From: Antedon mediterranea
Taxonomy: Eukaryota > Echinodermata > Crinoidea > Comatulida > Antedonidae
DNA length: 64,000 nucleotides
Assembly (NCBI RefSeq): GCF_964355755.1
Contig: NC_092672.1
Coordinates: 5,642,001-5,706,000, forward strand
Direction: 5' to 3'
Shown here: piece after piece, positions 3,959 to 64,000 of the stretch
Layout: the number at the start of each line of letters is the position of its first letter
Numbering within the stretch: the stretch's first letter is position 1
Translations under genes and position numbers: made by a program
Notes under the pieces: model-generated
What the model was told of the DNA's origin: nothing
The model's input: only the letters and a program-made list of their open reading frames with translations
Database searches by the model: none

Positions 3959-3971
3959 TTATTGTCTGTAT

Positions 3972-9893: not shown

Positions 9894-10790
9894 AGTAACA
9901 TTTAGACATATATGTAACCGCGGATTCAACACACATCGCCTTGCTTTGAAATTATTGGTAGTTTTTTTGGTTTTTTTTGGTCTCTGACACATCATACTAT
10001 AATGTTCGGTTTAAAAACTTTATCTAATCTATTTTTAAATAATTAAAGGAACCTAATAAAATAGCAACATTTTATTTAGGCACGTAGAGAATGAGATGAT
10101 TACTGAAGGCCTATGATACATATACACAAAAATCAACTATATTCATTATATATTTATACCCATCAAACAATATAGTTATTTAAATTTTTAACGTGTTTCA
10201 ATACTGTGTAGGTAAAATATTGTACAGTGTTAGCATTTTGCACACACCACCGTCCACGGTATGACCAGTATTATATTTTATACCACCCTAATACTATCTA
10301 AATAAATATTACTACCTGTATACCATTAGATAAAAAGACTTTGAATAGAAAAAATAGTGTGAAGATAATTACTTTAGTGGAACACGACCAGCAAAAGAGA
10401 AAAACTTTAGTAGCACAAATCAAAATAAAATTTCAACTAAATATTAATATATAATTGATTTGTAAAACCAAGAAATAATAAAATATAGATATAGTTCATA
10501 CAATAATTATTTGTATTTAAAGTGTCATTGATTTAGTCTAAGTAGGCCTAATAGAATAAAATGACTGTAGCACACTAAATTTCACCATCAACTAAAACTT
10601 ACTATAAAATCACCTACAATTAAACATCTAGTTTATAATCTCCACCCGTTTTTGTAGACAGCTACATCATTTTTTTTTTGTTGGATGACATTGAAATTAG
10701 AATGTCAATGTTTGTCTAAACTTTCCTTGACAAAAAGGAAAAAAGCTTACAAGGTAAGCATGTATTGAGAAGATAATATTAATTAGGTCA
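9894..10790. repeat. Duplicated 5' flank of the TLR unit, copy 2
   Basis: Non-coding and homologous to 2103-3000 and 18031-19035. It ends near GATAATATTAATTAGGTCA, a string also found just downstream of the UPB1 stop codon at about 19412-19430. Confidence 0.75.
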
Positions 10791-10847
10791 GACCCAAGAC
10801 AAGATCGCCTTCGTGGCATTCAGAAACTTTGTTTCGTGATATTTTTT

Positions 10848-12724
10848 CTAAGGATTACCAGCAATTAGCCTATCCTTTGGACAGTTAGGTGACAAAAGAG
10901 CTGTTTCAAGTTTGGCCCAGAACAATGCTTGTCTCTCTGGATGTTCTTCCCATTCGATATAAGTTGTAGTGGTCAATATCTTGTGTAAGAGTATCGGCAT
11001 TTCTTTGGGTGACACCTTCTCGATTAGTACCACGACCAATATATCTTCATGGCTGTCGAACATACGCATGCGCGTCATTTCTAGCTCGAAGTTGCACCAC
11101 TCACTTTTGGCAAAATGTTTGGAGACAACTAGCAAAACCTTGCGACTGAATTTAACGGCATTTGCGATGTTCGTAGCAATGGCTTCTCCTGGAATAAAGT
11201 CCCGATAGTCAACGCATAGTTTAAAATTTCGCTGCACCTCCAATGACGGCTGTAAGGTTTTCAGAACCCATTGTTGGTCGTTGCTGTTGTAACAGACAAA
11301 CACGTCATATCGAATGTCTTCTCCGTTGATAGGAGGAGGTCCTTGAGTGCAAAGTTGTTGATATTGCTTACGAAGGCGTCTTCGTTGATTCCAGTACCTA
11401 TATCGAAATAACATTTGTGATTTTTTTTTCAACAATTTACAAAAGATGAGTCCTTTATCTTGAGCGTTATATTTAGGACGGTACATCGACTAGAAAATTG
11501 TGGATAAAATAAATTTAATTATGGAAGATCAAACTTCAAATACTTAAAGTAGTCGACACAAAACAGTGGATACTTTTTTAATTCGTTCTATTTTTTCATA
11601 ACCTAAATTGGTTTTAGGCCTAAAAGGAATAAGAGATTTAAGGTTTATGAATACAATTAACCTCACCTTATATTAAATCTGTAGCGGTAAAGAAGTAGGC
11701 AACATATTGTAATAGCAAGCCCAGCTGAAGCAAAAGGAATTGTAATTCTTAAGATATCCAGCTTGCTGCAGTGTAGTTTATCGGGGTCAAAATCCAATAT
11801 TTTCTTTCTATAAGGTGTGCTACAATTTGTATGGCTAATGTCTTGAATTTTAACATTCGTTGTCCCAATCCATTTCCTAAACCACACTAAATTGCAGTCA
11901 CAGCTAAATTTATTGTACGCCACATTGAGAAATTGTAATTGAGTCATATTTTGGAGTCCAACATCTTCTTCGATTGTAGTTAACAGGTTGTCATTTAGAG
12001 TCATTCGTTGTAATCCGGATAAGCCTTTAAATGCTTGTGGTGGTATACTGCTAATCTTATTAGACTGTAAATATAAGTATTTAAGAAGTAGTAAATTTTG
12101 GAAAGTGCCGGAGTTTATATATTTGATAGCGTTTTTTGTAAGATCAATTTTGATTAGGTTTTTGCAATGAGTAAATACCTCAGGATGTATTGTGCTTAAT
12201 CCGCAATCTGGTAGTTGCAATTCTAATAAAGAAAAGAGATCATCAAACCAAGGCAGGAGTTTACCCAAGTAGCCGTTTTTTGCCATACTTAAAAATGTCA
12301 ATTTATGCAAGCCACGAAATGCATTGATTTCAACTTTGTTATACTTTAATCTGTTGGTAGTAAGATTTAAACTGTGTAGAATTGTAAAATTCCTAAAATA
12401 ATTGTTCTCCAATGACGAAATACGATTGTTTGACAAGATGTAAAACTTAGCATCAGTTGGAACTTTATCTTGTAGTGGAAGCGATGTCAATTGTTTGTCT
12501 GAACAATCCACGTTGTGACTGTAGCGGTATTCCGTTTCTGTTTTACAATATAAGCATTCACATTTCTCGGGACATCTAATATCTGATGGAATTCGACCAC
12601 CATTAGGGTTGATGACACAGCACGTTACATTACCGTCGGATGTAAATGTACAGTTGGTGGGAACCGTGTAAAGCTCAGAATGAGCAGTTGCCAAAACAAC
12701 GAAGAGTATCATATAGCGCAACAT
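10848..12724 (-). CDS. Short Toll-like receptor, intact copy B (two exons)
   Basis: Exon 1 is 12724-11667 and exon 2 is 11397-10848 after CGATATAG; together 535 aa. The reading frame extends upstream to an ATG at 12802, but the signal peptide (MLRYMILFVVLATAHS) starts at 12724. LRRNT has CPEKCECLYC. About seven LRRs, LRRCT (CDCNLVWFRKW), a membrane segment and a TIR domain follow. The TIR has YDVFVCYN, RDFIPGE and ALFW and is almost identical to copy A. From the last LRR through LRRCT the protein also nearly equals copy A, while its N-terminal half is clearly different, which points to gene conversion. No lesions are seen. Confidence 0.9.
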
Positions 12725-12802
12725 AACCATATAACCATACGAAAAAAAATGTAATAAACGAGAAAACATACGCACAACAGTAATAACTGATGATGAATAC
12801 AT

Positions 12803-13559
12803 GATAAGGAAGTTAATGTTGGAATTTATGAGTTAATGTTGGTTTGTAAATTGTTCATGAATCACTTCACAATCAAGATCGCAATAAGGAAGTTTACAAT
12901 TTCACAATTTTCAAGGAGAAAATTATTATCAGGGAAAATCAGTAGTAAAATGATAACATCATAGCTGATTATAGGCCTGCTGTAACCGATAAGTCTGTAT
13001 TTATTGTATTTTTTATGTTAGTCCACCAGGCAGTCGGCGTTTCGATTTTTGTCTGAAAATACGAACTCATGTTTTATACGTATGAAGCGCCATATGTGTC
13101 AAAATATTTATATTTTTACTAATTTCAGTCTAGAATCCAGACTAGCGATGCATCAACAATTATTACTATTTCCTGTCTTTATTAACAATTTACAGTATAT
13201 CTCAGTTGGTATTGTACCTCCCTTATTTCCGCCTTAAGGGTAGAAAAAGTTCACAAACATTTATGCAACTTACTTTTATACTTGGTTCAAAATGGAGTAT
13301 TGTTAGTAATTTTATCCCGCATATGATACCTAATTCTGACGTGCCCTTAAATACATGATTTCCTTCTCTTGACAATTTTAAGATCAAACAAAACAACACA
13401 TTCATGAGCGTCTCAAAACTAGGCCTATATGGTAAATTCAATGTTTGTTATGGCCGAGACTTTTTACAGAATGTTTTTTATTACATTTAAAAAACTAAAA
13501 ACGTAACATATCCCCGTGTTAATAACGCATCAGTGTCCACAATTTCTATCTCTAAACTA
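12803..13559. other. Intergenic, no gene seen
   Basis: Spacer between copy B's start and the 3' end of copy C. It is AT-rich with only short unsupported open frames and no strong repeat. Confidence 0.5.
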
Positions 13560-13682
13560 ACAAGGCTATATACATGGCTGCAGTCGCGTGCGCAAATTTT
13601 AATTTGTGTTTACCGACCAACCGACCGACCGACCGTTCAACCGACATAGTGAGATGTAGAGTGGCGTTTGCACGCGACTACA
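13560..13682. mobile_element. Short element with AGTCGCGTGC/GCACGCGACT ends, copy 3
   Basis: GGCTGCAGTCGCGTGC, a longer CCGACCAACCGACCGACCGA core, then TTTGCACGCGACTA. It lies about 60 bp past the stop codon of TLR copy C, the same position as the copies downstream of TLR A. Confidence 0.6.
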
Positions 13683-13744
13683 CTTTTACGCTGACTGCAA
13701 CTCTACAAAATGAAATGTAGTCTTTTTTAATCATTATTTTTTCT

Positions 13745-15547
13745 TTAGGGGATACCACCAAGAAGCCTATCCTTTGGACAGTTAGGCGATAAAAGAGCTG
13801 TTTCAAGCTTGGCCCAGAACAATGCTTGTCTCCCTGGATGTTCTTCCCATTCTATATACGTTTTCTTCGTCAATATCTTGTGCAAGAGTATCGGCATGTC
13901 TTTGGGTGACACCTTCTCAATTAGTACAACGACCAAGATATCTTCATGCTTGTCGAACATACGCATGCGCGCCATCTCTAGTTCAAAGTTGCACCACTCA
14001 CTTTTGGCAAAATGTTTGGAGACAACTAACAAAACCTTACGACTGAATTTAACAGCGTTCGCAATGTTTGTAACGATTGCTTCTCCTGGGAGAAAGTCAC
14101 GATAGTCAACGCATAATTTGAAATTTCGCTCCACCTCCAACGATGGCTGTAAAACATCTAGGACCCATTGTATGTCTTTGCTGTTGTAACAGACAAAAAC
14201 GTCATACCGAATATCTTCTCCGTTGATTGGAGGAGGCCCTTGGTTGCAAATTCGCTGGTATTGTTTGCGAAGGCGTCGTTGTTGATTCCAGTACCTTCAT
14301 TGAAATAAATGTATGATTTGTTAATGATTTACAAAATGTGAGCATCGGTTTTATTATCTCTTATATTATACCTATTGAGCAAATTGTGGATAAACTTGAA
14401 CATGTATTAAAATATAACCGATTCCTTTAGTAATTCGTTGATTTTTTTTCTCATAAAATACATTTTTTTTAAACAGGTAAAAAACAATTCATTAATCTCA
14501 CCTTAAATGAAATCTGTAACGGTAAAGAAGCACACCGCATATTGTGATACCAAGCACAGCTGAAGCAGAAGGAATTGTAATTCTTAAGATTCTATCCAAC
14601 TTGCTGCAGTGTAGTTTATTGGGATCAAAATCCAGTATTTTCTTGTATTCTTTACTATCTGGAAATTGTCTACATCCTGTATGGCTGGGCTGATCAATTG
14701 TAACATTCGTTGTCCCAATCCATTTTATAAACCACATTAAATCACAGTCACACATGAATGTATTGTATGCAACATTTAGAATCTGTAATTGAGTCAGATT
14801 TTGAAGTCCCACATCTTCAGTGATTGTAGAGAGGAGGTTGTCATTTATAGACATTCGTTGTAATTTGGATGACCCTTTAAATGCTTGTGGTGCTATACTG
14901 GTAATCTTATTGTTGTTTAGATATAAATATTTAAGATCTGATAAATTATGGAAAGTTCCGGACTGAATATATTTTATAGAGTTTCTTGTAAGATCAACTT
15001 TTATTAGGTTTTTGCAGTAATTAAATACATTAGGATATATTGTGGTTAATCCACATTGCGGTAGAAACAGCATTTCTAAAGACACGAGATCGTCAAACCA
15101 AGGCAGGAGTTTACCCAAATAATCGTTTTTATCCATACTTAAAAATCTCAAATTATACAAGCCACGAAATGCATTAATACCAATGGTGTTGTACTTCAAG
15201 TTGTTGAAAATAAGATTCAAAGTGCGTAGAAATATTAATCCTTTAAAAGAATTGTTCTCCAACGATGAAATACGATTGTATGACATTGTGTAAAACACGA
15301 CATCAGTTGGAATTGTATCTTGTGATGGAAGCGATGTCATTTGATTGTATGAACAATTCACGTTGTGATTGTAGTAGTCTTCCGTTTCTGTTTTACAATA
15401 TAACGAACAGTTACATTTCTCGGGGCATCTAATATCTGCTGGAGTATCATTAGGATCGTAATTGTAGCACGTTAAATTATCCCCAAATGACGTACCGCTG
15501 TACACTGTCTCAAAACCAAGGACAATTATTATCAAACAACGCAACAT
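13745..15547 (-). CDS. Short Toll-like receptor, intact copy C (two exons)
   Basis: Exon 1 is 15547-14502 and exon 2 is 14294-13745, joined in frame to 531 aa with a 207-bp intron. The signal peptide is MLRCLIIIVLGFETVYS. LRRNT has CPEKCNCSLYC with one residue more between the last cysteines than copy A. LRRs, LRRCT (CDCDLMWFIKW) and a membrane segment follow. The TIR keeps YDVFVCYN, RDFLPGE and ALFW but is the most divergent of the intact ones (DIQWVLDVLQ, ILTKKTY). It is intact at both splice sites and both frames. Expected to act as a homo- or heterodimeric surface or endosomal receptor; ligand unknown. Confidence 0.9.
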
Positions 15548-16265
15548 CTTCTTCTTATTAACAATGCAAAATTATTGCAGTGGGAATTCAAAGATTAGAA
15601 AACCCAATCATTCGTTGTAAAATAGGAAAACAGTAAATTCAGGTGTCGAAACAAAACTATATTTGCTTTATTTATCACTTCCGTAAAATAATGTTAACAA
15701 TTTCACCTTGTCTCTAGCACCATTAGCGTTTCAGCATCCTATTTGGAAAATGTGAGAGAAATAAAGACTTGTTCCTTGTGTATTGCTTAGTGTATTAGTA
15801 GCAGAACAAAGAAGCAGAAACTAAAACTAGAAAATAAAAACTGTATTGTTGTTTACATTAAAGTAACAAATCTACTTGATAATAGCTTACATATCTCTTT
15901 ATTATCAAATGAAAGCCTTTATGTCCTAAAAAGGCTTCAAATCGCAAATTCGTGAGCGTCATAAAAGTACGGTATTTATTTTATTTACAAATAAATAACA
16001 CAAACAATAAGAAGTATGCTGGAAAAGGTACAATATATGAAATAGTAAACTTAATAGCAAATGCGTAAATTACGTAATTTCAAAGTTAAATATCATGACG
16101 TTTATACAAAAAAGTTTATAATGTAAATGTATCAACGTTTTAATAAGACATCAGTGTGCACAATTTAAATATTATCTCGAACTAAGATCTACGCTAATCT
16201 TCAAACTACAATTATAACTCTACAAAAATACAACATATGAAAAAGTAGCTTTGTCCATATTGTTT
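15548..16265. other. Spacer between TLR copy C and TLR-psi2
   Basis: Contains a diverged copy of the TLR 3' flank (the ATGTAAATGTATCAACGTTT stretch at about 16122 also occurs at about 4770 and 5421) and the GTGTATTGGTTAGTG-like stretch seen near 4400. No gene is seen. Confidence 0.55.
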
Positions 16266-17841
16266 CTAAGGGTTACCAGCAAGAAGTCTATCCTTTGGAC
16301 AGTTTGGTGACAAAAGAGCTGTTTCAAGCTTGGCCCAGAACAATGCTTGTCTCTCTGGATGTTCTTCCCATTCGATATAAGTTGTAGTGGTCAATATCTT
16401 GTGTAAGAGTATCGGCATTTCTCTTTGGGTGACACCTTCTCAATTAGTACCACGACCAATATATCTTCATGGCTGTCGAACATACGCATGCGCGCCATTT
16501 CTAGCTCGAAGTTGCACCACTCACTTTTGGCAAAATGTTTGGAGACAACTAACAAAACCTTGCGACTGAATTTAACAGCATTTGCAATGTTCGTAGCAAT
16601 TGCTTCTCCTGGAATAAAGTCCCGATAGTCAACGCATAGTTTAAAATTCCGCTGCACCTCCAACGATGGCTGTAAGGTTTTAAGAACCCAGTGTTGGTCG
16701 TTGCTGTTGTAACAGACAAACACGTCATAACGAATGTCTTCTCCGTTGATAGGAGGAGGTCCTTGGTTGCAAATTCGCTTATATTGTTTGCGAAGGTGCC
16801 GTTGTTGATTCCAGTAGTCCAGTACCTTCATTCAAATTTAAAAACATATTTAGAACCGTACATCAACTAGCAAATTGTGGAAAATATAAAATTTATTATT
16901 ATTAAAGACTTAAATTAGTTGTATATAGTACAAATAAATAATACAAAAATGCTTTTGTTAGAATTAAGGTTTATGGATACAATTTATTAATCTCACCTTA
17001 AATGAAATCTGTATCGGTAAAGAAGCACACCGCATATTGTGATAGCAAGCACAGCTGAAGCAGAAGGAATTGTAATTCTTAAGATTCTATCCAACTTGCT
17101 GCAGTGTAGCTTATCGGGGTCAAACTCCAATATGTACTTGTATTCTTTACTATCTCGAAATAGCCTACAGTCTGTATGGTTGACGTCTTCAATTGTTACA
17201 TTCGTTGTCCCAATCCATTTTCTAAACCACACTAAATCACAGTTACACAGATATTTATTGTACGCAACATTGAGAAATTGTAATTGAGTCAGATTTTGGA
17301 GTTCAACATCTTCTTTGATTGTAGTCAGCAGGTTGTTATCTAGAGACATTCCTTGTAATTGCGATAAACCTTTAAATGCCTGTGGTGGTATACTGGTAAT
17401 TTGATTGTTGTCTAGATACAAATATTTAAGAACTGGTAAATTCTGAAATGTTCCGAAATCGATATAATTTATCAAGTTTTGGGTAAGGTCAATTTTAATT
17501 ATTTTTCTGCAATGATTAAATACCTTAGGATATATTTTTCTTAATCCACAATGTCGTATTTGCAGCATTTCTAAAGACACGAGGTCATCGAACCAAGACA
17601 GGAGTTTAGACAAATAACCGTTTTTATCCATCTGTAAAAATCTCAAATTATGCAAGCCACGAAAAGCATCAATATCAATGGTGTTGTACTTCAAGTTGTT
17701 GGAAATAAGATTTAAAGTGTCTAGAAATGTTAATTTCTGGAAAGAATTGTTCTTCAACGATGAAATAAGATTGTATTGTAATTTGTAAAACCCAACATCA
17801 GTTGGAACTGTGTCTTGTGGTGGAAGCGATGTCATTTGTTT
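16266..17841 (-). pseudogene. Short Toll-like receptor, broken copy (TLR-psi2)
   Basis: The LRR exon keeps 17841-16997 but has lost its signal peptide, LRRNT and true start. The coding similarity stops at TSLPPQ and an inverted-repeat element follows. The TIR exon (16825-16266) is 560 nt instead of 550. Eight extra bases (ACTACTGG) form a local duplication just inside the acceptor. Two extra bases (CT) lie at about 16421 in the codons after SPKE, and cut the TIR before the box 3 FW. The three lesions make a functional receptor very unlikely. The LRR to membrane part otherwise stays open and is close to TLR-psi1. Confidence 0.88.
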
Positions 17842-18030
17842 GCGTTTACGTCCTTGCGCTGCGTTATAGTGGGAACCAAACTTAAGACTTAAAGCAAGGA
17901 AGTAGACGCACCGCAAGCGAGTTGACCAATCACAAGTAACAGTTTGGATAATCTATCGCTTGTGATTTATCATATTACTTGTGTTCCGCTAACGTCATTG
18001 CGTTGCGACCTAGTAGGAACCGAGCTTAAA
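17842..18030. repeat. AAGCTTGGTTCCC element that truncates TLR-psi2
   Basis: TTGCGTTTACGTCCTTGCGC, then GTGGGAACCAAACTTAAG and GAGTTGACCAATCACAAG: the same family as 1729-2102. It replaces the 5' end of the receptor exon. Confidence 0.65.
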
Positions 18031-19473: not shown

Positions 19474-22400
19474 CTACTCCTTAACAATAAGGGGTTTGTA
19501 ATCTGGTGATGTGGCCTGTGTTAGTAAGTCAGCATACATATCATGACGTCCAGTCATCTAAACAAAATGGAAGTGCATATATGATATATTATATATTGAA
19601 TAGTACACGTATACAGTAAAGATGACATAGCATATACAGTATGGTATATAGTACACCAGTGACATATTGTATATAGAATAGTACACGTATACAGTAAAGA
19701 TGACATAGCATATACAGTATGGTATATAGTACACCAGTGACATATTGTATATAGAATAGTACACGTATACAGTAAAGATGGCATAGCATATACAGTATGG
19801 TATATAGTACACCAGTGACATATTGTATATAGAATAGTACACGTATACAGTAAAGATGACATAGCATATACAGTATGGTATATAATACACATGCGGTATA
19901 TTGAATATAGAATAGTACACGTATACAGTAAAGATGACATAGCATATACAGTATGGTATATAGTACACCAGTGACATATTGTATATAGAATAGTACACGT
20001 ATACAGTAAAGATGACATAGCATATACAGTATGGTATATAGTACACCAGTGACATATTGTATATAGAATAGTACACGTATACAGTAAAGATGGCATAGCA
20101 TATACAGTATGGTATATAGTACACCAGTGACATATTGTATATAGAATAGTACACGTATACAGTAAAGATGGCATAGCATATACAGTATGGTATATAGTAC
20201 ACCAGTGACATATTGTATATAGAATAGTACACGTATACAGTAAAGATGACATAGCATATACAGTATGGTATATAGTACACCAGTGACATATTGTATATAG
20301 AATAGTACACGTATACAGTAAAGATGACATAGCATATACAGTATGGTATATAATACACATGCGGTATATTGAATATAGAATAGTACACGTATACAGTAAA
20401 GATGACATAGCATATACAGTATGGTATATAGTACACCAGTGACATATTGTATATAGAATAGTACACGTATACAGTAAAGATGGCATAGCATATACAGTAT
20501 GGTATATAGTACACCAGTGACATATTGTATATAGAATAGTACACGTATACAGTAAAGATGGCATAGCATATACAGTATGGTATATAGTACACCAGTGACA
20601 TATTGTATATAGAATAGTACACGTATACAGTAAAGATGACATAGCATATACAGTATGGTATATAGTACACCAGTGACATATTGTATATAGAATAGTACAC
20701 GTATACAGTAAAGATGACATAGCATATACAGTATGGTATATAGTACACCAGTGACATATTGTATATAGAATAGTACACGTATACAGTAAAGATGACATAG
20801 CATATACAGTATGGTATATAATACACATGCGGTATATTGAATATAGAATAGTACACGTATACAGTAAAGATTACATAGCATATACAGTATGGTATATAGT
20901 ACACCAGTGACATATTGTATATAGAATAGTACACGTATACAGTAAAGATGGCATAGCATATACAGTATGGTATATAGTACACCAGTGACATATTGTATAT
21001 AGAATAGTACACGTATACAGTAAAGATGGCATAGCATATACAGTATGGTATATAGTACACCAGTGACATATTGTATATAGAATAGTACACGTATACAGTA
21101 AAGATGACATAGCATATACAGTATACAAATAATGAATGTTTATTAGTGCAATGGTACAAATAATGGCACGAGGTGAATGATGAAAGGTTATATCAACGAG
21201 GCAAAGCCGAGTTGATATAACCTTTCATCATTCACCAAGTGCCATTATTTGTACCATTACACGAATACAAAACATTCATTATTTGTTTTATATAACATCT
21301 AAATAAATTCTAGTTATTTGAATCAAATAAAAGGTAGCCCTACCTAGCCAAAGCTTACTACATTTCATTCACACACATTTGATTAAAAACAGTAACATTT
21401 GGTTTTTAATAATGTTATATTAAATGTTATATTTATATGGATTTCGTAAACACACCTACTTTTGTGTTAATTATGTCAACAAACGACCAAACAATCCTAG
21501 GCCTAGCAAGGCTAAAACGCCTAAGCTAGGCCTAGCCTAATACTAGCATGGCCTAGGCTAGACCTAGTAGCCTCAGTACTAGCTTGGCTGAAAGGCAAAA
21601 CTTCGACAGACAATTGGAACTTATCTAAGCTAATTATGGTTTTTCCAACAATTCGACGTCTTGTAGGGATGTCCCCATTAATTAATCAAAATCCTAAAAA
21701 CGATCTAAAGCTAATTTAAATGCCTTTTTGAATGAAATTAGTACATAATGTCCAAATCGTACACAAATATCTGCTGCTGTTGCATATCTCGCGGTGGTGT
21801 TTACAAATGAAACTCAGACCAGACGACAGGTGGCGCTGTTGTATTTCACAGTACATAGCCATATCATAGGATAATTTGTGTACTAGATTTTTTTTCATCC
21901 GCGAGACGTTTTTTTTTTCGTACACAAAAATGTTTCAAGAAGTACTATTTAACGATCGTTGAATAGTGCGTACTATTGCACGCCATGTGACCCACATTCG
22001 TCCAATCAAATGACAGGAATTTATATAGGTGTTATATAATATGGTATATAATACACATGCGGTATATTGAATATAGAATAGTACACGTATACAGTAAAGA
22101 TGACATAGCATATACAGTATGGTATATAGTACACCAGTGACATATTGTATATAGAATAGTACACGTATACAGTAAAGATGGCATAGCATATACAGTATGG
22201 TATATAGTACACCAGTGACATATTGTATATAGAATAGTACACGTATACAGTAAAGATGGCATAGCATATACAGTATGGTATATAGTACACCAGTGACATA
22301 TTGTATATAGAATAGTACACACATACAGTAAAGATGACATAGCATATACAGTATGGTATATAGTACACCAGTGACATATTGTATATAGAATAGTACACGT

Positions 22401-25400
22401 ATACAGTAAAGATGACATAGCATATACAGTATGGTATATAGTACACCAGTGACATATTGTATATAGAATAGTACACGTATACAGTAAAGATGACATAGCA
22501 TATACAGTATGGTATATAGTACACCAGTGACATATTGTATATAGAATAGTACACGTATACAGTAAAGATGGCATAGCATATACAGTATGGTATATAGTAC
22601 ACCAGTGACATATTGTATATAGAATAGTACACGTATACAGTAAAGATGACATAGCATATACAGTATGGTATATAGTACACCAGTGACATATTGTATATAG
22701 AATAGTACACGTATACAGTAAAGATGACATAGCATATACAGTATGGTATATAGTACACCAGTGACATATTGTATATTGAATAGTACACGTATACAGTAAA
22801 GATGACATAGCATATACAGTATGGTATATAGTACACCAGTGACATATTGTATATAGAATAGTACACGTATACAGTAAAGATGGCATAGCATATACAGTAT
22901 GGTATATAGTATACCAGTGACATATTGTATATAGAATAGTACACGTATACAGTAAAGATGACATAGCATATACAGTATGGTATATAGTACACCAGTGACA
23001 TATTGTATATAGAATAGTACACGTATACAGTAAAGATGGCATAGCATATACAGTATGGTATATAGTACACCAGTGACATATTGTATATAGAATAGTACAC
23101 GTATACAGTAAAGATGGCATAGCATATACAGTATGGTATATAGTACACCAGTGACATATTGTATATAGAATAGTACACGTATACAGTAAAGATGACATAG
23201 CATATACAGTATGGTATATAGTACACCAGTGACATATTGTATATAGAATAGTACACGTATACAGTAAAGATGGCATAGCATATACAGTATGGTATATAGT
23301 ACACCAGTGACATATTGTATATTGAATAGTACACGTATACAGTAAAGATGGCATAGCATATACAGTATGGTATATAGTACACCAGTGACATATTGTATAT
23401 AGAATAGTACACGTATACAGTAAAGATGGCATAGCATATACAGTATGGTATATAGTACACCAGTGACATATTGTATATAGAATAGTACACGTATACAGTA
23501 AAGATGACATAGCATATACAGTATGGTATATAATACACATGCGGTATATTGAATATAGAATAGTACACGTATACAGTAAAGATGACATAGCATATACAGT
23601 ATGGTATATAGTACACCAGTGACATATTGTATATAGAATAGTACACGTATACAGTAAAGATGACATAGCATATACAGTATGGTATATAGTACACCAGTGA
23701 CATATTGTAAATAGAATAGTACACACATACAGTAAAGATGACATAGCATATACAGTATGGTATATAGTACACATGCGGTATATTGAATATAGAATAGTAC
23801 ACACATACAGTAAAGATGGCATAGCATATACAGTATGGTATATAGTACACCAGTGACATATTGTATATAGAATAGTACACGTATACAGTAAAGATGACAT
23901 AGCATATACAGTATGGTATATAATACACATGCGGTATATTGAATATAGAATAGTACACGTATACAGTAAAGATTACATAGCATATACAGTATGGTATATA
24001 GTACACATGCGGTATATTGAATATAGAATAGTACACGTATACAGTAAAGATGACATAGCATATACAGTATGGTATATAGTACACCAGTGACATATTGTAT
24101 ATAGAATAGTACACGTATACAGTAAAGATGACATAGCATATACAGTATGGTATATAATACACATGCGGTATATTGAATATAGAATAGTACACGTATACAT
24201 GTAGTACATATGTGGCCTATTGAATAGTGCACATATTCAGTGTGGTAGAATGGCATAGTTCTTGTATGTAAATCTATTCACCTTGAAACACCATGTATCT
24301 TTTATCTGCCGACTTAAATTGAGGTCAACTTCTGCAACTAAAAGTCCATCTCGTACTCTTGACAATCCCTACAGAAGAAAATGTACTCGAGTACTATTTA
24401 TGAGATTCACAGAAGCTGTTTTAATCTTAGACCATAATGCTGATAGTCTAGTTGGAATTTGTATTAGTAGCTCAAGTCTTTGTACAACAAACACTATGAT
24501 CTTTATAATTCTCTTCTCCACATCTATGCCATGTGGAGCACTACAAATTATTACCTGTCTGTCACTGAAATACGCTTAACTACTAAAAATTACCATAAAT
24601 TATTATTTGAGCTCATTATATAAGACCATTAAGATGGTCTTTATCTTTTTTTTAGTGTATTACAATTTTCATAAAAATAATAATTATAATATTTAAAACA
24701 AAAATAAATACCGGTGTTCTGCTTCCATCTGGAGCAGCCAAATAACTAGAACCTGAATTAATTAAAAATGAATGCTGTTACCCAAGGTAATTGATATGTG
24801 TCACTACTTCTAGTTCTACTTCTAGTTATGCATGCGTTATATCTTCTCTTGAGTCCACTTGCTTGCTAGAAAATATGACTACTCCGGATTTGGTTCCCAG
24901 AAATCTGGTATCCCAGTAGAGGTGTGTGTTTATTTTAATAATGCTGGATACAAGCATATTTTTTGCACATTAGGCCATAAATCAGATAGGTGGTAATCCC
25001 CCTTATACAGGGGCTATTTTTATAAACCAATTCACCAGCGTAACCCCTACTTGTCTTCAATGATGAATTCAGTACAAACAAGTTATAAATGTGTACACTG
25101 GACCTATGTTTTTTTTTTGGTTTTTTGGGTTTTTTTTTTAGGGTGATCCATCCAGAAATTGCTGATAATTAGGGACCCTCAGGGGTTCACAAGACAAACA
25201 TATACACAAGATGCTCTACATAAACAAAGTCTTTTCCTTAGAAAAAATCCTGACATGTGACGGGACAAGGACAAGCATGATATTTGTAGTCCTTATCCAT
25301 AAAAACTCCCACAACCAGAACTAGGTGGGAGTCGGCCTAGAACACATGCGGATATTGTTGACTCTTTAGGTACGGTAAATGTTGTCCTGGTCTTAACCGC

Positions 25401-40938: not shown

Positions 40939-43900
40939 ATGTTACCGTCAATTTCATGTACATATGTCGGATATTTAATCGTGATAATTCAACTGGTTTC
41001 ATTAATTGCTGGATACAACACTGGAGCACCACAAGAGGCCTGTACAACACGGACGCCCAATCATGGAATCGGTGTCTCAGCACAGACCAGTTCCCCACCG
41101 TTTGTTCTGTCAACATCAGATTCTTCACCATATGTAAAAGGTAAACCAGCTACGTCATTTTTAACGTTACAAACTGTATATATTACATCTATTTATCGAT
41201 CATGGGTCTATTCTGTACATAAAAGGGTAAATAAACGTTCGTATATACCGTAACACAGTTCATTATAAATGGGCATGAATAATAGCTTATACTGTAAGTG
41301 TTACAAGCCATAAGAATAATTATACTATTATTGTATTATTTATAACAGTTATGAGAATACGAATGAATTATTTTTCATGCCATAACCACGTTGAAAATTA
41401 TCATAGGTCTACAATTAATAATTGTATTGGAAGTCATAATGACCAAATCAATGTTCACTTGGATCCTAGTTGTTTTAATTGAATTGATATGTCAAGCACT
41501 TGGTCCGATGAATCAACGTACAGTAGAACCCCTGTTAGGGGGACACATTCGGGACCAACAAAGTACACTGTAGTAAGTTAATAGTGTCCCTTTGGTTGTA
41601 ATGCTTTAACAATTGTTTCATACGTAATACTTAGTTTCCCATTGACTGGACGTCCTTTGAATAGGTCAAAGCATGGAGAAATAAGTTTAGAATAATAACT
41701 TTTTCTCCATGCTATACAACTGATGAAATATTAGTTATTTCTCCTAGAGAAGGTTAACGAAATATATTACACATTGCATTGATATGAACCTTATTTGAAT
41801 CAGTTTTAATGTTATGCCACTTAATGTACTGTCAGCAACAATTATCACTAAATATGGATAAATGAAAAGGAGTATCTACAGTACCAAGTAACCCATAGTT
41901 TTTATACCTTGTTGTACGAAGTATGGAGGTGTAAAAATATGTGGGCGCAATGTCATTCAAACTTCGTAATAAGTATATACAATGAGTATTATTTGCTTGT
42001 ACCTTAAAATGAAAGATATAACAGTATAATAAAATAGTTGGTTTTAAACTGTGTTATGCCTGACTTGAAAGTTTGTTCGGTTGAAGAGAACAGAACAATG
42101 TCACGACCGTATCTAGCCATTTGGAAAATCCTTTTTCTTTTGTATACTTTCATAGTGAATTTCATTTTGCATAGAATGATAAGTTGAAGTTTTTCATTGT
42201 TATTTATATTATGAGTCAAGTGCTATATACAGCATACTGTATTTCCTATTTTACTTTTTTTAAATAATTCATACATACTGGACACATATAGTGTACAAGA
42301 AGCATGGGCCTATAAATGTATAAGTCCATAGTAGGTACAAGCCTACAATAGGGTTGGTGAAATCTGTCCATAATAGGTTACTTTTCTGTCCATAATAGGT
42401 TACTTTTCTGTCCATAATAGGTTACTTTTCTGTCCATAATAGGTTACTTTTCTGACCATAATAGGTTACTTTTCTGTCCATAATAGGTTACTTTTCTGTC
42501 CATAATAGGTTACTTTCTGTTCATAATAGGGACTAGAGGGCGCTGTTGTTTGTCCATAATAGGTGACTTTCATAAATGGCTGTCCAAAATAGGTGACTTT
42601 TTGTCCACAATAGGGGATTTTATTGGCGTTAGTGCGCCATCCATTGTGTTGTCTATAATAGGTGATTTTTTTGGCGTACTCGTATGTAACCCCGCTCCAA
42701 ATAGATTCCTTAAATGTGCCATTATTTCTTACAGAACCTGTGTAAATGTTGGCCTACAATCCCCACGTTCATTTTATTACAAATATTTATTTAGAATACA
42801 CGAACGAAATACAGTACCAAACATAACAACTATGAACTGTAAATACCTGACTAACTGATTCTTCTTGAAAACGGAAAATAATATAGTACTATAAACATTA
42901 ATCTTTCGTTTGTCGGTAAATATTTTACGGGTTTATGCTTATTTCTTTGTTTTGAAAAAAAAGTAAATAGTGAATTGAATGTCCAGTGTATCCACCGTGT
43001 TGCTACGAACCACCATTCAACAAATAATAATTTAAAATCCTAATAGAGGCATGAAATATTTGTGCAACCAAAAAGTACTCCATATTCTTGCTTTAACGAT
43101 GATTAACTGCCGTCACTTCCTTCTTCCACGGACACACCATTTATTTAGGCTACTGACAAGGTTTTTTACAACAAATTTCCATGTCAACAAAGGGTCGGCA
43201 TTCAATGAACCATTCTATTCAATTCACAACCAACAAGAGAGACACAAAACATCCACTAACAGGTTGAGATAAAACAAAACAGATATTACATTAAACAACG
43301 TTTACTCTATATTGTAAATCTAAAAATGGATAAATATTACAAAATAATCACAATCAATATCATAAATATTCAAAGTATTAACTTGTGAGCTACTCTCTGA
43401 GAAATAAACTTATCTTAGTACTCTTAGTACACGTCTACTCGCCTAAAAAGTACATAACTAATTAGATTAAGTCTGCGCTTTCTTATAAATTAACATTACA
43501 TTTAGAATTAGGACACGTTTTGTTAAAAATAATAAAAATCTATTTTGGATTCTGTCTGTAAAACTTGATATCGATATATAACTTGATATATGAGATATCG
43601 AATTCACAATAACTGGACAATATTCAAGATGTGACCAAACCATTGTTTTATAAATACACACCCAAGTATATGCCCGTCACTTATAAATCTCAGTTCCTCC
43701 AAATCAACCTACTAGCTTTAGAAACATCATACTTAACATGGTAACAACAATTTAATTTACTGTATATTAAATACCAAAATCTTTATGAACAGATCCTGCA
43801 TATTTAAATTATAACGGAACAAAGTTGGCTTTTCATTAAGGATACTAGACATAAAATTGCATTTGTGTTTTTACCACAACAATATAGGTCTCCTCCCTGA

Positions 43901-46900
43901 TTCGTCATAGAATACAATGCCTACAAGTCATACATGTAGTAAAAGCTGTACAATAATAATAATAATAATAAATAACATTTATAAAGCGCAAGAGACAAAG
44001 GTTTCAAAGCGCTGTGTTTTCCAAGATCTGTGCAAGTAGTAGTAGTAGCGTGTGATTATGCTTCTCTGAAGAGATGAGTTTTGAGTTTAGTTTTAAATGT
44101 GATAACAGATTTTGAGCGTATTTCGAGAGGTAGAGTGTTCCAGAGTTTTGGGGCTGCGACAACGAAAGCACGATCACCGTAAAACCGAGTTCTGGAACGG
44201 GGTCCAGGTTTAAGAAGAAGTCTGCTGGATGAACGAAGCGTAGAGTTTGTTGACGGAGTAATGATGTCACATATGTAGGCTGGAGCACATCCGTTAATCT
44301 TTATGATTGTTTTTGTTCTTTCAGTCACCATTGACTCTTCAACATATTCAGCTATAAAAGGGTTTCTTATACAAGGAAGACAGGACAGTGTGAACGGCGG
44401 CATTGTTGGGACATGGCTTGCAACATCTAACGGTCAACTTCTACAATGTACCAACTCTTATGATTCAGTAACACATAGTAACAGTAACGATAAAAATTTA
44501 CCTTTAGAATTTTTCTGGAACCCCGACAGCACAAACACGAACACGAACAATATTATATTTGTGTAAATATTTTTTTTTTTATTGTTTTTAATTAACAATA
44601 TACTTATCTAGGATTACACAATCAGGTAAAAGAAAAACCTGTTTTACATTGTGGTCATGTCTTAAATACAAAATAAATTGGGGGGAACAAAGTTTTAGTT
44701 TTGTGAAAGAGAGTTACTAATTATCACCATGATGAGACCGGATACACCACTTGGATTGAAAGTAGGCCTATAGGACTACTATATTTCGTTTTGCTTTTCC
44801 CATGAATCAGATATTCATCGGATAAAAAACATAACCTTAAAATTCACTTTGAACGAAATAAAAGGTTTAAACACTTTCAATAATTAGTACTAACTGTTCG
44901 TTTTTCCAGAAACCAAAACATTATATAATACTTCTCAAAACTATGCCCTCAAGCCATGATTGGTTGTAATGACCATGACGAAATCATGAATATTCATACC
45001 ATGGATAAATTCTAATTGTACAATTTATCATTTATTTCATATGATTATTATTACTTTGTATTACGTTTTTTAAATTAGGCGGAGTACAATATTGCAAATA
45101 CAGTAATGTTTATACTAATATTACTATTACTTTTTTATTTAGTGCAACCATTGTAGTTAATCAAGCAACGTTTTGGGTTGACGTCACCAGTAGTACTACT
45201 ACTAGCAGTAAGTATGTTTTTATGCATCGTAAGTTATTTCAATCAATCGTAATAATATTAAAATGTGCCCGTGGTTCTTATCACAGTAAATGCAAAAACA
45301 AAATGAGAGAAACAAGAACTAATTGATTACAAAGAAATGTATTTATTCAAAATGATTATGTAACAAAAATATGAAATAAAGGCGAGTGAATTTCACAAAA
45401 GAAGAGAGAAAAAAAGAAATAAATGCTTGTTTGATTGATAGATATTATCCATTTATTAAAAAGATGCTTGCAGTCCGAATAATCCGTGTCAAAATTCTGG
45501 AAGTTGTACGCTTATTTCTACTAGTCCATTCTACAGCTGTACCTGTGCAAGTGGATATACTGGAAGCACTTGTCAGACACTCTCTCTCTCTCTTAAAACG
45601 CTAATCGTCGTTAGACATTGCGCGTCTCACTTGTGTTCGCCACTCAGTACGTTTTTGAGCAAGCATGTGTATAGGTCCGCGTGTGAAAAGTTCTGTTTCC
45701 TTTTTTATGTTTGCCATCCATGTTGTTTTTGGTCTTCCTTTTGGTCGTTTGGTCTTTCTCTGAGCCTCTCCGAGTGCGATCTTAGCTGGTGTGTTTTCAT
45801 TTAAACGGAGCAGGTGACCATACCATGTCAGTCTTCTTTTCTTTACGTTCTTACTCCACTCAATTTCTCCTGTTCTTTTGTACTTCTTCATTTTTTATTT
45901 TCTCCGGCCACCTTATACCTATTATTCTCTTTAGGAATTTTCTTTGAAAGACATCTATTTCGCTTTTAGTGATGCTGTCATTGTCCACAGTTCACAATTA
46001 TACAGAAAGATGCTTGTAATGTATACGTTGAAGACTCTCATTTTCAGGTTTATTGACACTAGTATCTGGTAAATATTCAAAAGAGTCCCGGCGATAAATA
46101 GAATCATTTAAGCGTAAATGTAGTTATATGTGTTTAGAAGGAGGAAAACCTGACATTTGGTAAATACTGTATATAATCATTACCGAACTATCATGGGGAT
46201 GAGTACGTGTAGATGTGGGTACACCAGCAGCGATATTTCTTTTCGTACATAAGTTGGGAATCCCTCATGAAACGTCACAAAATAAACATGAATATTCATT
46301 AGTCATATCCATAAGGTGTGACGTAAGAATTGAACTAACTACAATTGGCTAATGCACACGCTTTCTGTCGAGCCGTCTGTGTAGTCGAATGGATTCCCAT
46401 GAGCAACTTCTTACTCTTACTTTATAGTGAGATAGAGATTATTTAGCGGGTTAGGGTTAGTTATATTTAGGAAGTAGTTCGGCTATCTTTCACATAAGTG
46501 CCTTTTCCGTTGTGTTTTGAAAATAGATGGAATCATGATTACAAGATATTAAAATGTTTCTCTCCCGCAGGTCCATGTTCTCCTAATCCATGCCAAAATG
46601 CGGCCAATTGTCTGATATCGCAAGACACCAACGCATATTTTTGTCAATGTCTAAATGGATTCTCAGGAACAAATTGTGAAATAGGTAGGTATTTGCAACA
46701 CAATAAATATCACATATGGTAACAAGTTTGTAAAACTTAAATACTAGACAGTGCAGATACATTGAACATAAAAATATTGAAATATAAATAATAATATAAT
46801 AATAATAAATATAATAGAATGGAAATTACATTGCTCACTTAGCACAAAGAAAAGGCCTATAGAAAAGAATATCATAGATCATATTATACAGTTTGACTAC

Positions 46901-56752: not shown

Positions 56753-57562
56753 AGCCACTACGATACGGGGCCGTGGCGCAAAAATTTGATTCCTCGACGT
56801 CTCACAGGCAGAAATCATGAATCATTTATACGGTCCAAATTTTATAAAAACGATGACATTAGAGAGATTTTATCAATCCTTTACAGCATGAGTAAAAGTG
56901 ATCTGGAGCTCAGGGGAGGAGGTTGAGTCTCACCCAATAATACGTTTACCAAGTGTTCAAATGTACTTAGAGTATACCGAACGTAGGGCAAAGACCTAAT
57001 AATTTTAGCATGGGTAATTTTACATCATTATAAACTATAACATAGGCCTACTACTAATTTGATTATTGACCAAAATATAGATTGAAAATGCTTCCGTAGG
57101 CCTATTATGTGTTTGAATCTAAACGGAGATATGCCTATGTTCTCGAAAAAATCATCTTGGTTCAAATGATTTATGTTAGTATTTTGGTAAACCACAACGT
57201 TGCAAAAAAGTCTATTTTTTTATGGTTTACCAAAAGGAAAAAAATATAACATAAACAGAGATAGCTATATACATTACTGTACATTGAAAACATTAGTTTG
57301 CTATTTAACTGCTAGGAAGGGCTAAATAAACAGGTAGAATAATGTAGTTCTTATATAGTGTCACTGTTTAAATAATAGTACAATATATCCATAGGAGCGT
57401 AAGAACACAAAAGACATTCAAGGTGGTATTGCTTCTTTTCTGCTGCCATTCAATGTGCTCACTGTGTCGTATCGTTTGATCGCCTATTGTCAGTATCAAT
57501 ATTAAATGGATTTATGTCTCGACTGGACAGTCTACGTTTGGTGTGTATAATCAACAGTCAAA

Positions 57563-60500
57563 ATGGTTGCAAAAAGACTGTTTGATGCAACTGTAACAAT
57601 GATTCTAGGGTTGGTATTAATATTTATATGTAATGTATACGGTTTTGAGGATGGAGCACCTCTGACAGCCTGTACTACTCTAATGCCTGGTCACTTAGGG
57701 ATAAATCCACAACCAAGCAACGTTATACCATTTAGCATTATTCCACAGACATCAGTCTACAGTCCAGGAACAAATTTAGACGGTAAGTACTAAGTGGAAT
57801 GCAAACTAAAGTCTTGTCTACACTATCAAACTTTATGTGTCAAAAAAATGTGATGTGCCCATATATGAACATGATGATGTCATATCACTACCATATTTAA
57901 GCATAGCACTACCATATTTGGGCACATCAAATTTTTTTGACAAATAAAGTTTGATAGTGTAGACAAGGCTTAACACATCTTTGAAATTATTGTAAACATT
58001 CTGTCATAACGTTAATTTTTGTTAAAACGTTTATAAACTTTGCTTGGTGCAATTATGAAAATCATCTCTTATTTTAGCATCTATTTATGATTGTGTGAAT
58101 AATATAATGTAGGTCTATTATTTTAGGACATCTTTAAAGTGTTTTACATGACTTTAGGTAGCATAGCAGGATAAAATAATCAAATTGAAAACTAATATAG
58201 ACTTTTTAACGAAGGGGTTAGAATGATATCCTCATCGTCGTAGACATAAACATTACAAATAAAAGTGATAAAATATGGTTTTTGCCTGACAGACAAATTT
58301 CAGCTTTTCTACGTAAATAACTTTTTTTAGATCCAGTTTTTTGTCCAAGTCAATAACAATTATGTTACATTAAAATGGCATATTCAACAACAAAAATTGA
58401 ATAAAAAACAGTTAGTTAAAAAGTAAATATACAGACGTACGTATAAAGATAGAAATTGATCGGCGAATTTTGCCGCTATAACATGGTTGCCATCACTTAT
58501 TACAATCATGATTAAATTTGTCAATATGCGAGATAGTAGACCCTGCATAGAATCATATATGATGTTGAGTGCCTTACATCTGTGTATTCTTAAGCATTGT
58601 CAAAATGATCAAGTACATTGTTATTACATTAGTTGGGTTAGCCGTTGACGTGGGCAAGCATACATTAAACTGCAGGGGTATTGAACGTGTCCCTGAAATA
58701 AAATAAAATAATATTTTTGAAAACAGTAATTTCAACTCAGCAGTGATTCTCGTACAAGTGGCATATCATAAAGACTATAATATTGAAGCGCATTGTTGTT
58801 TGAAATTAAAAATCCATATCAATGCATAATCCGAGTCGTGCTATAAAGTATTAGTTTTTTGATATAGAAATATCACGTAGACTGACATATACGATTCAGA
58901 TGAAACTAAACCAATAAAATGGGATTACTTTATTCAATAGAAAAGAGCTCACACGTTGATATTACATTATCAACTGTATGAAAAATAACTCGTTAATTAC
59001 ATGATCGTCATGAGAACGACTTCAAGCTCTTATCCACTATTAAACTTTATGTGAAAAAAAATTGTGAAGTACCCATAATGAACATGATGATGTCATATCA
59101 CTACCCTATTTGAGTATATCACTAGGCCTAACATATTTGGGTACATCACACTTCAAACTAGTTTGATAGAGCTTTAAACATGCATGACCCTACAAAACAA
59201 CTCCTACTGGTTGGGATATCTTATGTCTCTCATAGCAATAAATCGTATACAGGTCATATATGATTAAGAATTATTTATTATAATATATTCATTAGTTCTA
59301 TAAAAAGCACTACTGAATTATTATAAATATGGATAAAACTGGAAAAATTAATATTATGAATAACAGAAAACGCTGATGCTATTATTATTATTATTGATCG
59401 TCATGGTGAAAACGAATATGGCGGTTTTAATTAAACGAGAGTTCTTTCATCCTTACCGTTTAAGACATTGGTATATTGTGTATTGATTGTGATCAGTTTA
59501 AACAGCAATTATGATAGTGGAAAAACATATACGAAACTATGACAGTCGATGTTCGTTAATTTAACGTAAATACTGTAGGCTAATAGAATTGGTATGAGAC
59601 CCACATTGTCTTCTAAACGTTACCGAATATATCCCATTCTCACAGATTTCCTCATCTTATCCTTTCAAATGAATTATTAAATTTCAGTATATCACCGGAT
59701 GGTTTAGAATTTATTCCGTGCCTGTGATGATTATATACAAAAAGTAAACATATTAACGCATTGAAAAACTAAATATATAGGCCTATTAAAGTGACACCGT
59801 GAATAAATGTCGTTGTTTGTCTACACTATCAATTTTGACCAAAAAAAAATGTGTGATGTGCCCAAATATGGTAGTGATATGACATCATCATATCCAAATA
59901 TGGACACATCACATATTTGTGTTACATAAGGCTTGATAGTGTAGACAGAGCCTTAATCCCAGTAGTCCCAGAAGGCTTTCTGTTCGACACAGAAAAGAGC
60001 AAATAGGTTCCGCCTTTTTAGATAAGACAGTTTCTATTGTTTATGTTTTATTATAAATGATAATCTTTTAATTCAGAAAACATGTAATTATCACCAGAAA
60101 TAACTGATTATTTGGATATTGGCCTACCAGTATTTCCCAACTGTTATTACTTCAAAACAAATGTTTTTTACTGCACCCTCTTTTGTTCCGTAAATTTTGC
60201 AATAATGAACGTAATCGACCCTGTCAAATTTCTTCAATTTCTTCAAATCACCATTTCATTTTTTTTAATTCGATTGTTCACTTGCTGACGTATGTACCAT
60301 TAGGTTTGGGTAAACAAACAACACAACTTACACTCGATTACACGCATCCTAGTTCTGAACCCGGAAAGCTTAAAAATGGCCGTAGCAAAAATAAATGATC
60401 TTATTATCTGTCGGGTAATCAACAAACACTCACAAACCCAAACGTTAAATTACGCCTAGGCCTACGTATTTATTTTTTTATATACCATTAATTAAGGTAG

Positions 60501-63053
60501 CCTTTTTTATCTTTTTTTTTCTCTCTCTCTCTCGGGGTCATGGTGGACAAGTTTTTTACTTCTAATCATGACCCCAATGATGGCTTTCTCTTATTTACCT
60601 CTTCTTGTTTTTGTATTGTATTACTGTTTTTTATTGCTTATTATTCTTGTATTATTACCATTACCATTATTGAATAAATGTTAATTGAACTTATAGTGCC
60701 AATACATAAAGATAATTAAGTTCAGTCAATATTATTTAAGTCACCTCTAACAGATTGGATTAAGTTACTATTAATGGTTTCTGTTCGATTAGTCTGTTAA
60801 CATTAAGTAATAATTCGTTCTTATATAGCGCTTAAGCCTAATTATTGCACAATTTTTCTAAGCGTTTCACATTATTACCACGGTCATTTTTTTTGTTGAC
60901 CAAACACGTATGGAAACATACTCTCATAATGAATATAATTATTAAGACATTAGTAAAATCTTAGCCTTGGCAAATGGTGTTTAATGAAAATTATTAATAG
61001 TTATTTGAGTTCATATTATGCATGGAATAGAACGCGGTTGTCATTATTTGTGTATGACAGGGACTAAGACAAACATCGAACAATACATCAGCAACCCAGT
61101 GCAAATAACAGCCCGACAAATAAAAACGACAAGGCGTATGCCAGCATACATTACTACAGCAGAATATTATTTCTTGTTAGCTAAGTCAGGGGGAAGAGTG
61201 AAATTACACTCTTTCAGTGCCGTACGAGGTGACTTCCACTAATATTTTCCTGTTTCAGACCTATATGGAGTTGAATTGTACGCCGCATAACTCTGTAGGT
61301 CTAACAGGCCCTAAGTTAGCCAAGAGCCCCAATATTACAAATTATAATCACGTCATTAGAATAATCTGATCATGCCTCATTCTGATGAAATTAAAGTAAA
61401 CATATATAATTACATAAAAAGAAAGAGATAAAACTAATCAAAAGCTCTGTCTACACTATCAAACTAGTTTGACAAAAAAAATTGTGATGTGCTCAAATAT
61501 AGTAGCGATATGTCATCATCATGTCCATATATGGGCAAGGACTTACTTGTTTAGTAAACAGCGACGTTTCTCGTCGACCTATCCAGGTCGTATCATCATG
61601 CCGTAACAGATTTAAATCTTTCTCAACTTAATACGACCTGGATGAATGGCAATATCCATATATGAATAAATAATTGTATTATCAAATATTTTTTTATAAT
61701 TTCTGATTATTTATTCAATTAAAACAAAAATTTCATTTAGGCCCAATACTATTAATGGATTTTTGCCTATTTTGTCCTAAAAAAGATCTACAATAACTAC
61801 GTTTTTTTTATGGCACTTTGACTACTCCTGAACCAATATGAAACATCAACAACGGTCAAAATACTTTTATTTAACTAATGATGATGATTGTAGACGATTG
61901 TAATACATACTATAATCAATAGGTGTTCCACTATATCTACAAATCAGATGAACATTGTGTTCCACTATGCTAGTACTGTTCATAAAATGAATGTTGTGTG
62001 ACAGGTTGGGGATAGATACGGTAGGCCTAATGTACATATTGACGGAAGAGTCTGAAGGGATATGATTTGCATTGTGTCAGCTTATCTCCAAAATAAGCAC
62101 ACTAATCCCACACCTTAAACTATTCATAATACACCATAGCATTATAGGTCATGGTACAGTATTTTCAAAGGAAAACATAATATACTGTATAATAAAAGAA
62201 ATGTGGATCAATGCCGCGGAAAAGGGTAGGGCTTGAGTTATGCATAAAATAGAAAAACAAGTTTGGTAATGGAAAAACAAGGCCATGTCTACATGGCTGC
62301 AGTCGCGTGCTCAAGTTAGTGTTTACCGACAAACCGACCGACATAGTGAGCTGTAAAGTCGTGTAGAACGCGACTAAAAACTTTACTGTGATTTTTCAAG
62401 TTTTCTTTTCATATAAGAATTATCAAGGCAGTGATGAGATTATATAGAGCTTGGGTTAAATTTATTTAATTAAAGATGAATTATGTTTCAAAAACAGTGA
62501 AGAATAAGAAAATATATCTTAGATTATCATTGGCAAATTAGCTATAGATAAGTAGGACAAGTATGACTGTAAATTAGGCAAAAACATTAAAAATATTAGT
62601 TTTTACATTCTTGCAAATATATCATAAGTATGATGAGTGCCCGGCCTATGGAGGGCAACTGCATTATTCTACAGTATCAATACACAGAAAGTATGATAGA
62701 CAATTAGTTAATTGTTTGTGGCGAGCAAAAACTTTAAATCAACAATTAAATGCAATTATTAATAAACGTTTTAATTTACGTATAAATGGCAATTTTGTTT
62801 TCACAGTGCACGTAAACGCTGTTGGAAACTCACTTTACGCAGGTATTTTGATGCAGGCTAGGTATGTCAACGGTGATTCCACATCCATTGGTTCGTGGGT
62901 TTCTTCAACATTACCAAGTAATACAAAGACAATTGAATGCCATAGCCGATCAAATTCTGCTGTCACACATTCTAATCCGGTGCTTAAGCCCTCAACAACC
63001 ACCTTTACATGGATCCCTCCGTCATCCGGAACCTCTGAAGATATTGAATTTGT
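57563..63053 (+). CDS. Second Reeler gene, 5' part (continues past the right edge)
   Basis: Exon 57563-57782 encodes a signal peptide (MILGLVLIFICNVYG) and the Reeler start GAPLTACTTLMPGHLGI. Exon 62807-63053 follows CACAG and encodes the Reeler core (YAGILMQARY, IGSWVSSTLPS, CHSRSNSAVTHS, FTWIPPSSG), ending TTTGT|GTAAGC. Phases (1, then 2) and exon lengths match exons 1 and 2 of the Reeler-EGF gene at 40.9 kb, so this is a tandem paralogue. The third Reeler exon and anything after it lie beyond the window. The 5-kb intron is full of MITEs. Confidence 0.85.
57807..57972. mobile_element. MITE, AAGCTCTGTCTACACTATC family
   Basis: AAAGTCTTGTCTACACTATC and GATAGTGTAGACAAGGCTTA form the ends, 25 bp after the exon 1 donor of the second Reeler gene. 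Confidence 0.8.
59022..59176. mobile_element. MITE, AAGCTCTGTC family, worn copy
   Basis: CAAGCTCTTATCCACTATTA at the left, AACATGATGATGTCATATCA in the core and AGTTTGATAGAGCTTTAA at the right, with part of the right end deleted. Confidence 0.7.
59812..59955. mobile_element. MITE, AAGCTCTGTC family
   Basis: TTTGTCTACACTATCAATTT and TTGATAGTGTAGACAGAGCC form the ends, with GTGATGTGCCCAAATATGG in the core. Confidence 0.8.
60520..60705 (+). mobile_element. Probable LINE 3' UTR remnant
   Basis: A hairpin-like GGGGTCATGGTGG / CATGACCCC pair, T-rich sequence and an end of ATTGAATAAATGTTAATTGA are typical of non-LTR element 3' ends. No coding part is seen. Confidence 0.5.
60810..60930. mobile_element. 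Truncated SINE body
   Basis: TTATATAGCGCTTAAG and GACCAAACACGTATGGAAAC match the body of the SINE at 50105-50435. The tRNA head is missing. Confidence 0.6.
61440..61545. mobile_element. MITE, AAGCTCTGTC family, 3'-truncated
   Basis: AAAGCTCTGTCTACACTATC through CATGTCCATATATGGGCA, then unrelated sequence. The second inverted end is missing. Confidence 0.75.
62281..62385. mobile_element. Short element with AGTCGCGTGC ends, copy 4
   Basis: GGCTGCAGTCGCGTGCTCAA, CCGACAAACCGACCGACATA and AACGCGACTAAAAA. It lies in the intron of the second Reeler gene, far from the TLR array. Confidence 0.6.
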
Positions 63054-64000
63054 GTAAGCATTTTTTTATTATGCTACAGCAGGGCCGTAACCAGGTTTGA
63101 CGGCGGGGTGGATCGTTAAGTTGTTTAGTGGAACCATACCCTCAATTTTTTTTTCTCTATAGGCCTATGTATGGCCGCAAATCGCATTTCCGGCTAATCT
63201 CTTTTGTTTATGAACTATATAATTTGGTGTAATTTCCACCCCACGAATTTCAATTGCCGACCTTAAATTGACGGCATTCTCTTGCCAACCGAAACTAGGC
63301 TAGATCCCTCCTCCTTTTAAGCCTCCTAGCAACAACAACATGGTACATTAAGGGATCGTATCATTGAGACTTTAACAGGCATATTCACCATCATGTGGTG
63401 TTTAGGTAACAAACCATGGAATTAAGATGATCCCTGAATTCACTCAACCATTGCATCTTGCACTTGCTTTCTCTATACTATCAAGCAGCTGGCTGGGCAC
63501 GTCACACGCACGCGGAGACCTGTGTAGGGGAATACCCTTTTATGTCAAGCAAACAACTATGCTCTGTGTTCGGCTAGCTCCAGAACCACGATGTTCAGCA
63601 GTTATCAAATAGAATTTATCTTGTAAATTTTAGTGTTAGGTTTTTATATTTTAGTTAAAATATATTTTAAATTCTTATGTTGATTTATATTAATTAAATT
63701 TATTAAGGCTTGACTAGGCCTGTAGTAAACAATCGTAATGTTGTGTTAGGGCCTGTTTCTATAGAGCAGAGAATACGGTTTTGAATACCGTTCTTTTCAA
63801 GAACCGTTTTTTCTTGCCAGCAGAAATGGGTCCCCACAAAAAACCACAAAAAAGAACCGATCTTAAAAACGGTTTCAAAAACCCCAATTGATTGCGGTCT
63901 CGATCGCAAAGAACCGTTCTGAAACCGGTTTCCGCGGAGCAATTTTTAGCTGCAACACAATCGCGGTCTCAATTTGACCCCAAAAACTGAACTCTGCAGT
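63054..64000. other. Intron sequence up to the right edge
   Basis: No exon of the Reeler gene is recognised. 63760-63925 holds several direct and inverted copies of GAACCGTTCT / AAACGGTTT and may be the end of an inverted-repeat element cut by the window. Confidence 0.4.

Follow-up and report, generated by a model that had tools for sequence, protein, structure and literature searches.

LINE-1 insertions in or beside exon 14 of the MET gene cause skipping of this exon in human tumours (PMC12934576). In the mouse, exon 10 of the Atp7a allele Mo-ca is interrupted by an antisense L1 of 81 bp, which leads to the in-frame loss of 10 residues (PMC6466679), and LINE insertions free of stop codons have been described within three internal coding exons of Drosophila (PMC2911107). 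The case considered here lies in a stretch of 64,000 nt from the crinoid Antedon mediterranea (hereafter the window), where a LINE fragment interrupts the first EGF exon (EGF1) of a gene encoding a Reeler domain followed by a series of EGF domains. We put the probability of the explanation as a whole, i.e., that a LINE inserted into and broke the exon, that the likeliest productive transcript now skips the exon and that the event is recent, at about 80%.

The host gene and its first EGF exon

The spliced model of the host gene runs on the plus strand from an ATG at 40939 to a stop codon ending at 54456. It comprises a signal peptide and a Reeler domain distributed over three exons (40939-41140, 44325-44562 and 45143-45207), followed by 15 EGF exons and a terminal transmembrane exon starting at 54311. 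The N-terminal part of the predicted protein matches the Pfam Reeler (2.3e-21) and EGF (2.4e-18) domains. Every modelled EGF exon, including EGF2 (46571-46684, 114 nt), is of phase 1-1 with a length divisible by three, and apart from the disrupted EGF1 the gene is intact. A literature search on genes of the Reeler-EGF-transmembrane type returned nothing direct.

Twelve places in the genome have Reeler matches, and one of these lies in tandem immediately downstream of the host gene. This second Reeler gene occupies positions 57551-63054 of the window and extends to L043 (Reeler 1.2e-13), where about 15 EGF exons follow, several of them near-identical duplicates. The region upstream of the host gene contains a minus-strand cluster of Toll-like-receptor-like genes (477-17952) in which several LRR ectodomain ORFs are each paired with a TIR ORF, and a large tandem array of 78-bp units (19582-24199; units about 95% alike) with three minus-strand frames open over hundreds of codons. 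About 45 bp before the acceptor of the second Reeler exon (44325) ends a further minus-strand ORF fragment (44056-44280); it has no Pfam match but resembles a reverse transcriptase C-terminus from another kind of LINE.

The insertion divides EGF1 into a 5′ part (45464-45581), whose translation contains the six cysteine codons (45469-45573), and a short 3′ remnant (46061-46068) that is followed by the donor CTG|gtaaat. The preliminary description had proposed that the exon without its insert would measure 126 nt, with phase 1-1 and a normal donor. Removing the insert and one copy of the flanking repeat from 45464-46068 indeed restores exactly such an exon, which aligns across the join, and at its ends, with three sister exons of 123-129 nt (at 49921, 52398 and 47186), and the score of the native donor falls at the 68th percentile among donors of EGF genes in this genome. 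The proposed disruption is equally real: the insert lengthens the exon to 605 nt, and the added 479 nt shift the frame, which is open from 45460 to 45801 and closed by a first stop codon at 45802-45804. Inclusion of the whole exon would thus now yield a frameshift and a premature stop, as can be read directly from the nucleotides. Since all six cysteine codons precede the insert, it leaves the EGF1 domain proper uninterrupted and affects no more than the final residues ahead of the donor.

The insert, its boundaries and its relatives in the genome

The hexamer GACACT, reported earlier to be repeated on both sides of a 479-bp insertion, is present in the direct sequence at 45576-45581 and 46055-46060. 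In the sense orientation of the LINE, the corresponding AGTGTC is the longest stretch in common between the two flanks. The insert between the repeats measures 473 nt (45582-46054, minus strand), and the earlier figure is obtained when one copy of the repeat is counted. It consists of an AG-rich tail (45582-45593), longer than the tails of other copies, followed by the antisense of the end of a reverse transcriptase (RT) ORF. The RT C-terminus announced previously was therefore correctly recognized, with the qualification that this copy spans only the very end of the enzyme and that two small deletions, of 2 nt and 1 nt, disrupt its reading frame.

At least 39 other places in the genome match the insert with 81-99% identity in a whole-genome search, the best of them being 94-98% identical over nearly its whole length, and the top matches 97-98%. 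Most of the 18 copies compared terminate at the same 3′ end, which reads GCGTTTTA(A/G)GAG in the sense of the element (minus strand of the window), whereas their 5′ ends are ragged and lie between 341 nt and more than 1868 nt away from it. Clear target-site duplications (TSDs) of 17, 13, 12, 12 and 11 bp flank 5 of the 13 other copies checked, for example ATAACAAAAAGTGAAAG (17 bp), TTCATTAGTATTC (13 bp) and ATATAGAAAATA (12 bp), and at several others among these 13 no duplication was evident at the assumed ends. The interpretation of GACACT as a TSD hence does not depend on the EGF1 copy alone. A longer copy encodes an RT (Pfam RVT_1, 1.7e-26) whose nearest structures in the PDB are those of R2 and LINE-1 ORF2p, and in the L009 copy an APE-type endonuclease (Exo_endo_phos, 2.8e-8) is found upstream of the RT, an arrangement common to RTE and other APE-type clades. 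RTE-type non-LTR retrotransposons are about 3 kb long in total, have almost no 3′ UTR and a short repeat tail, and encode an APE endonuclease and an RT. The element described here is alike in its endonuclease and RT, its length of about 3 kb, its scant 3′ UTR, its tail and its 5′ truncation. These features fit an APE-type, RTE-like LINE, the name RTE being suggested by anatomy and general knowledge of the group.

With an RT, a common 3′ end combined with ragged 5′ ends, and a TSD, the insertion is a non-LTR retrotransposon. The claim that a LINE fragment with its TSD sits in an EGF exon is thereby upheld, the ends of the insert matching the element ends set by the genomic copies. It is very improbable that the repeat arose by chance or that the insertion is an assembly artefact. 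The duplication is admittedly only 6 bp long, at the short end for a family whose clear examples measure 11-17 bp. However, the ends of the insert can be fixed by homology while disregarding the repeat altogether, since the matches of other copies end at 46055 and in a CT run around 45586-45590, and the restored exon is seamless. A 6-mer repeat would abut both given boundaries by chance with a probability of 0.0006 if no slack is allowed, or 0.009 with several bases of slack, and on this estimate a chance repeat was rejected. When the assembly was searched with the exon and its upstream flank for a version of the locus lacking the insert, no other match exceeded 84%; the nearest paralogues of the EGF1 exon (the C3 sister exons, and C8:15977053 with 81% identity) were rejected as empty alleles because they are old duplicates.

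LINEs insert by target-primed reverse transcription, and our proposal of this mechanism follows from what is known of such elements. The sequence and the other copies of the element show that a 5′-truncated copy of an RTE-like LINE of the APE-endonuclease type was inserted 8 nt before the EGF1 donor, antisense to the host gene, with duplication of 6 bp of the target.

Splice sites and predicted transcripts

Splice sites were evaluated with matrices for which EGF exons in this genome supplied 102 acceptors and 79 donors; the percentiles given are simple scores and not a measurement of splicing. The EGF1 acceptor, attaaaaag|ATGC, is weak (6th percentile), and the acceptor of EGF2, which would be required for skipping, is moderate (16th percentile). 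The introns flanking EGF1 are short, with 256 and 502 nt; the latter harbours a high-copy repeat (46227-46300) that is found in many places, mostly with 93-96% identity. The LINE itself brings two candidate sites on the plus strand. The putative donor TCA|gtacgt (45647-45652), whose score of 5.8 lies at the 22nd percentile of real donors, would terminate an open, in-frame exon of 183 nt (45464-45646), while the putative acceptor ctctcattttcag| (46028-46047), which with a score of 8.3 reaches the 40th percentile of real acceptors, would define, together with the native donor, an in-frame microexon of 21 nt (46048-46068). The donor motif is present in 14 and the acceptor motif in 9 of the 17 other LINE copies, indicating that both arrived with the element and not through selection at EGF1. 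In the model, all combinations of skipping and cryptic-site use remain open to the stop codon of the gene.

The preliminary description had pointed out that, the EGF exons being symmetric, skipping of EGF1 should keep the frame. This is confirmed by the spliced model, in which joining 45207 to 46571 leaves the host frame open for 754 aa to the gene's stop; one exon of this model was begun at 52395 instead of at its real acceptor (52398), a difference of three bases that does not affect the frame. Skipping is thus plausible as far as the nucleotide sequence goes, and the weak acceptor of EGF1 favours it. The likeliest productive transcript would then omit EGF1, because the exon is of phase 1-1, a prediction to which we assign roughly even odds. 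Next in likelihood among the productive forms would come one that keeps EGF1 and uses the LINE-derived donor after 45646.

Given the weakness of its acceptor, EGF1 may already have been inefficiently spliced, as a weak exon or a cassette exon, by the time the LINE arrived. The element would then have struck an exon that was in part dispensable, with little effect. We tentatively regard this as possible: the acceptors of sister exons reach the 74th and 82nd percentiles, and the A at position −3 is found in only 6 of the 102 family acceptors. On the other hand, the coding part of EGF1 is intact with its six cysteines in place, and an EGF exon of the same gene, at 52768, has an acceptor score just as weak. 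A rather different outcome would be that the exon is retained or misspliced, so that transcripts with the stop at 45802 are degraded or specify a secreted Reeler-EGF1 stub. The insertion would in this case represent a loss-of-function allele that has a low frequency, occurs in the heterozygous state or is compensated by the tandem paralogue. The frameshift and in-frame stop of the retained form are compatible with this, as are the recent date of the insertion, the second Reeler gene with EGF exons just downstream and the short flanking introns, which could be recognized by intron definition and possibly favour retention of a long exon. We nevertheless consider it rather unlikely in view of the in-frame skipping that is available; the remaining exons are also intact, although this would be expected anyway after a recent insertion.

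It is also somewhat doubtful that the LINE now provides a new 5′ splice site, with 45464-45646 joined to 46571 or, in a variant, with 45647-46047 removed as a new intron and the last 21 nt of the exon retained. Such a form would keep the six EGF1 cysteines and add a linker in which about 22 residues come from the LINE. The open frame up to TCA|gtacgt, the score of this donor within the range of real ones, the acceptor before 46048 at the 40th percentile and the fact that every combination reads through to the gene's stop all speak in its favour. But the donor is mediocre, about 0.2 in-frame donors of this kind are expected by chance in the 220 readable nt, and its use depends on the weak EGF1 acceptor. 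In addition, the extension would bring in two extra cysteines that could cause misfolding, and the sites have experienced no selection here. That the antisense LINE was recruited at once, most of the insert becoming a newborn intron while EGF1 persists with a LINE-derived linker, appears improbable.

Age of the insertion and comparison with known cases

In a comparison with 17 other copies, 2 substitutions in 464 nt (0.4%) and 3 gap columns are private to the EGF1 copy, and from this private divergence of about 0.4% the insertion appears to be recent. Within-species diversity equals or exceeds 0.4% in many invertebrates. As the private divergence is no larger than this, the insertion may well be polymorphic, and it may also be harmful. 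The suggestion in the preliminary description that the locus represents a natural test of tolerated domain loss is therefore unsupported as it was put. The main objection is that the presence of a recent copy in a single assembly is no proof of tolerance, and the insertion is probably too young to demonstrate it. Moreover, with the six cysteines upstream of the insert and a donor and an acceptor carried by the LINE, loss of the domain is not the sole in-frame outcome. From one assembly, the locus amounts to a well-annotated insertion and not to a demonstration of tolerance; if confirmed by RNA, it would offer a clean and datable case of a multi-EGF gene absorbing an exon-breaking insertion, either by skipping or with a borrowed splice site.

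The EGF1 insertion is a clear yet ordinary case of exon disruption, a fresh instance of a well-known kind. It is similar to the MET exon 14 insertions in that a LINE with TSDs lies in or adjoining an internal exon, and skipping is the outcome reported for MET; the MET insertions apparently arose somatically in human tumours, whereas the one described here was found in the reference assembly of an invertebrate, from sequence alone. As in Atp7a Mo-ca, a coding exon contains a short and truncated LINE in antisense orientation, together with in-frame aberrant splicing that is known for the mouse mutant allele and predicted for EGF1. The Drosophila cases likewise involve LINEs within internal coding exons of an invertebrate, next to short introns. 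However, those insertions are divisible by three and stop-free, while that in EGF1 shifts the frame and brings stops.
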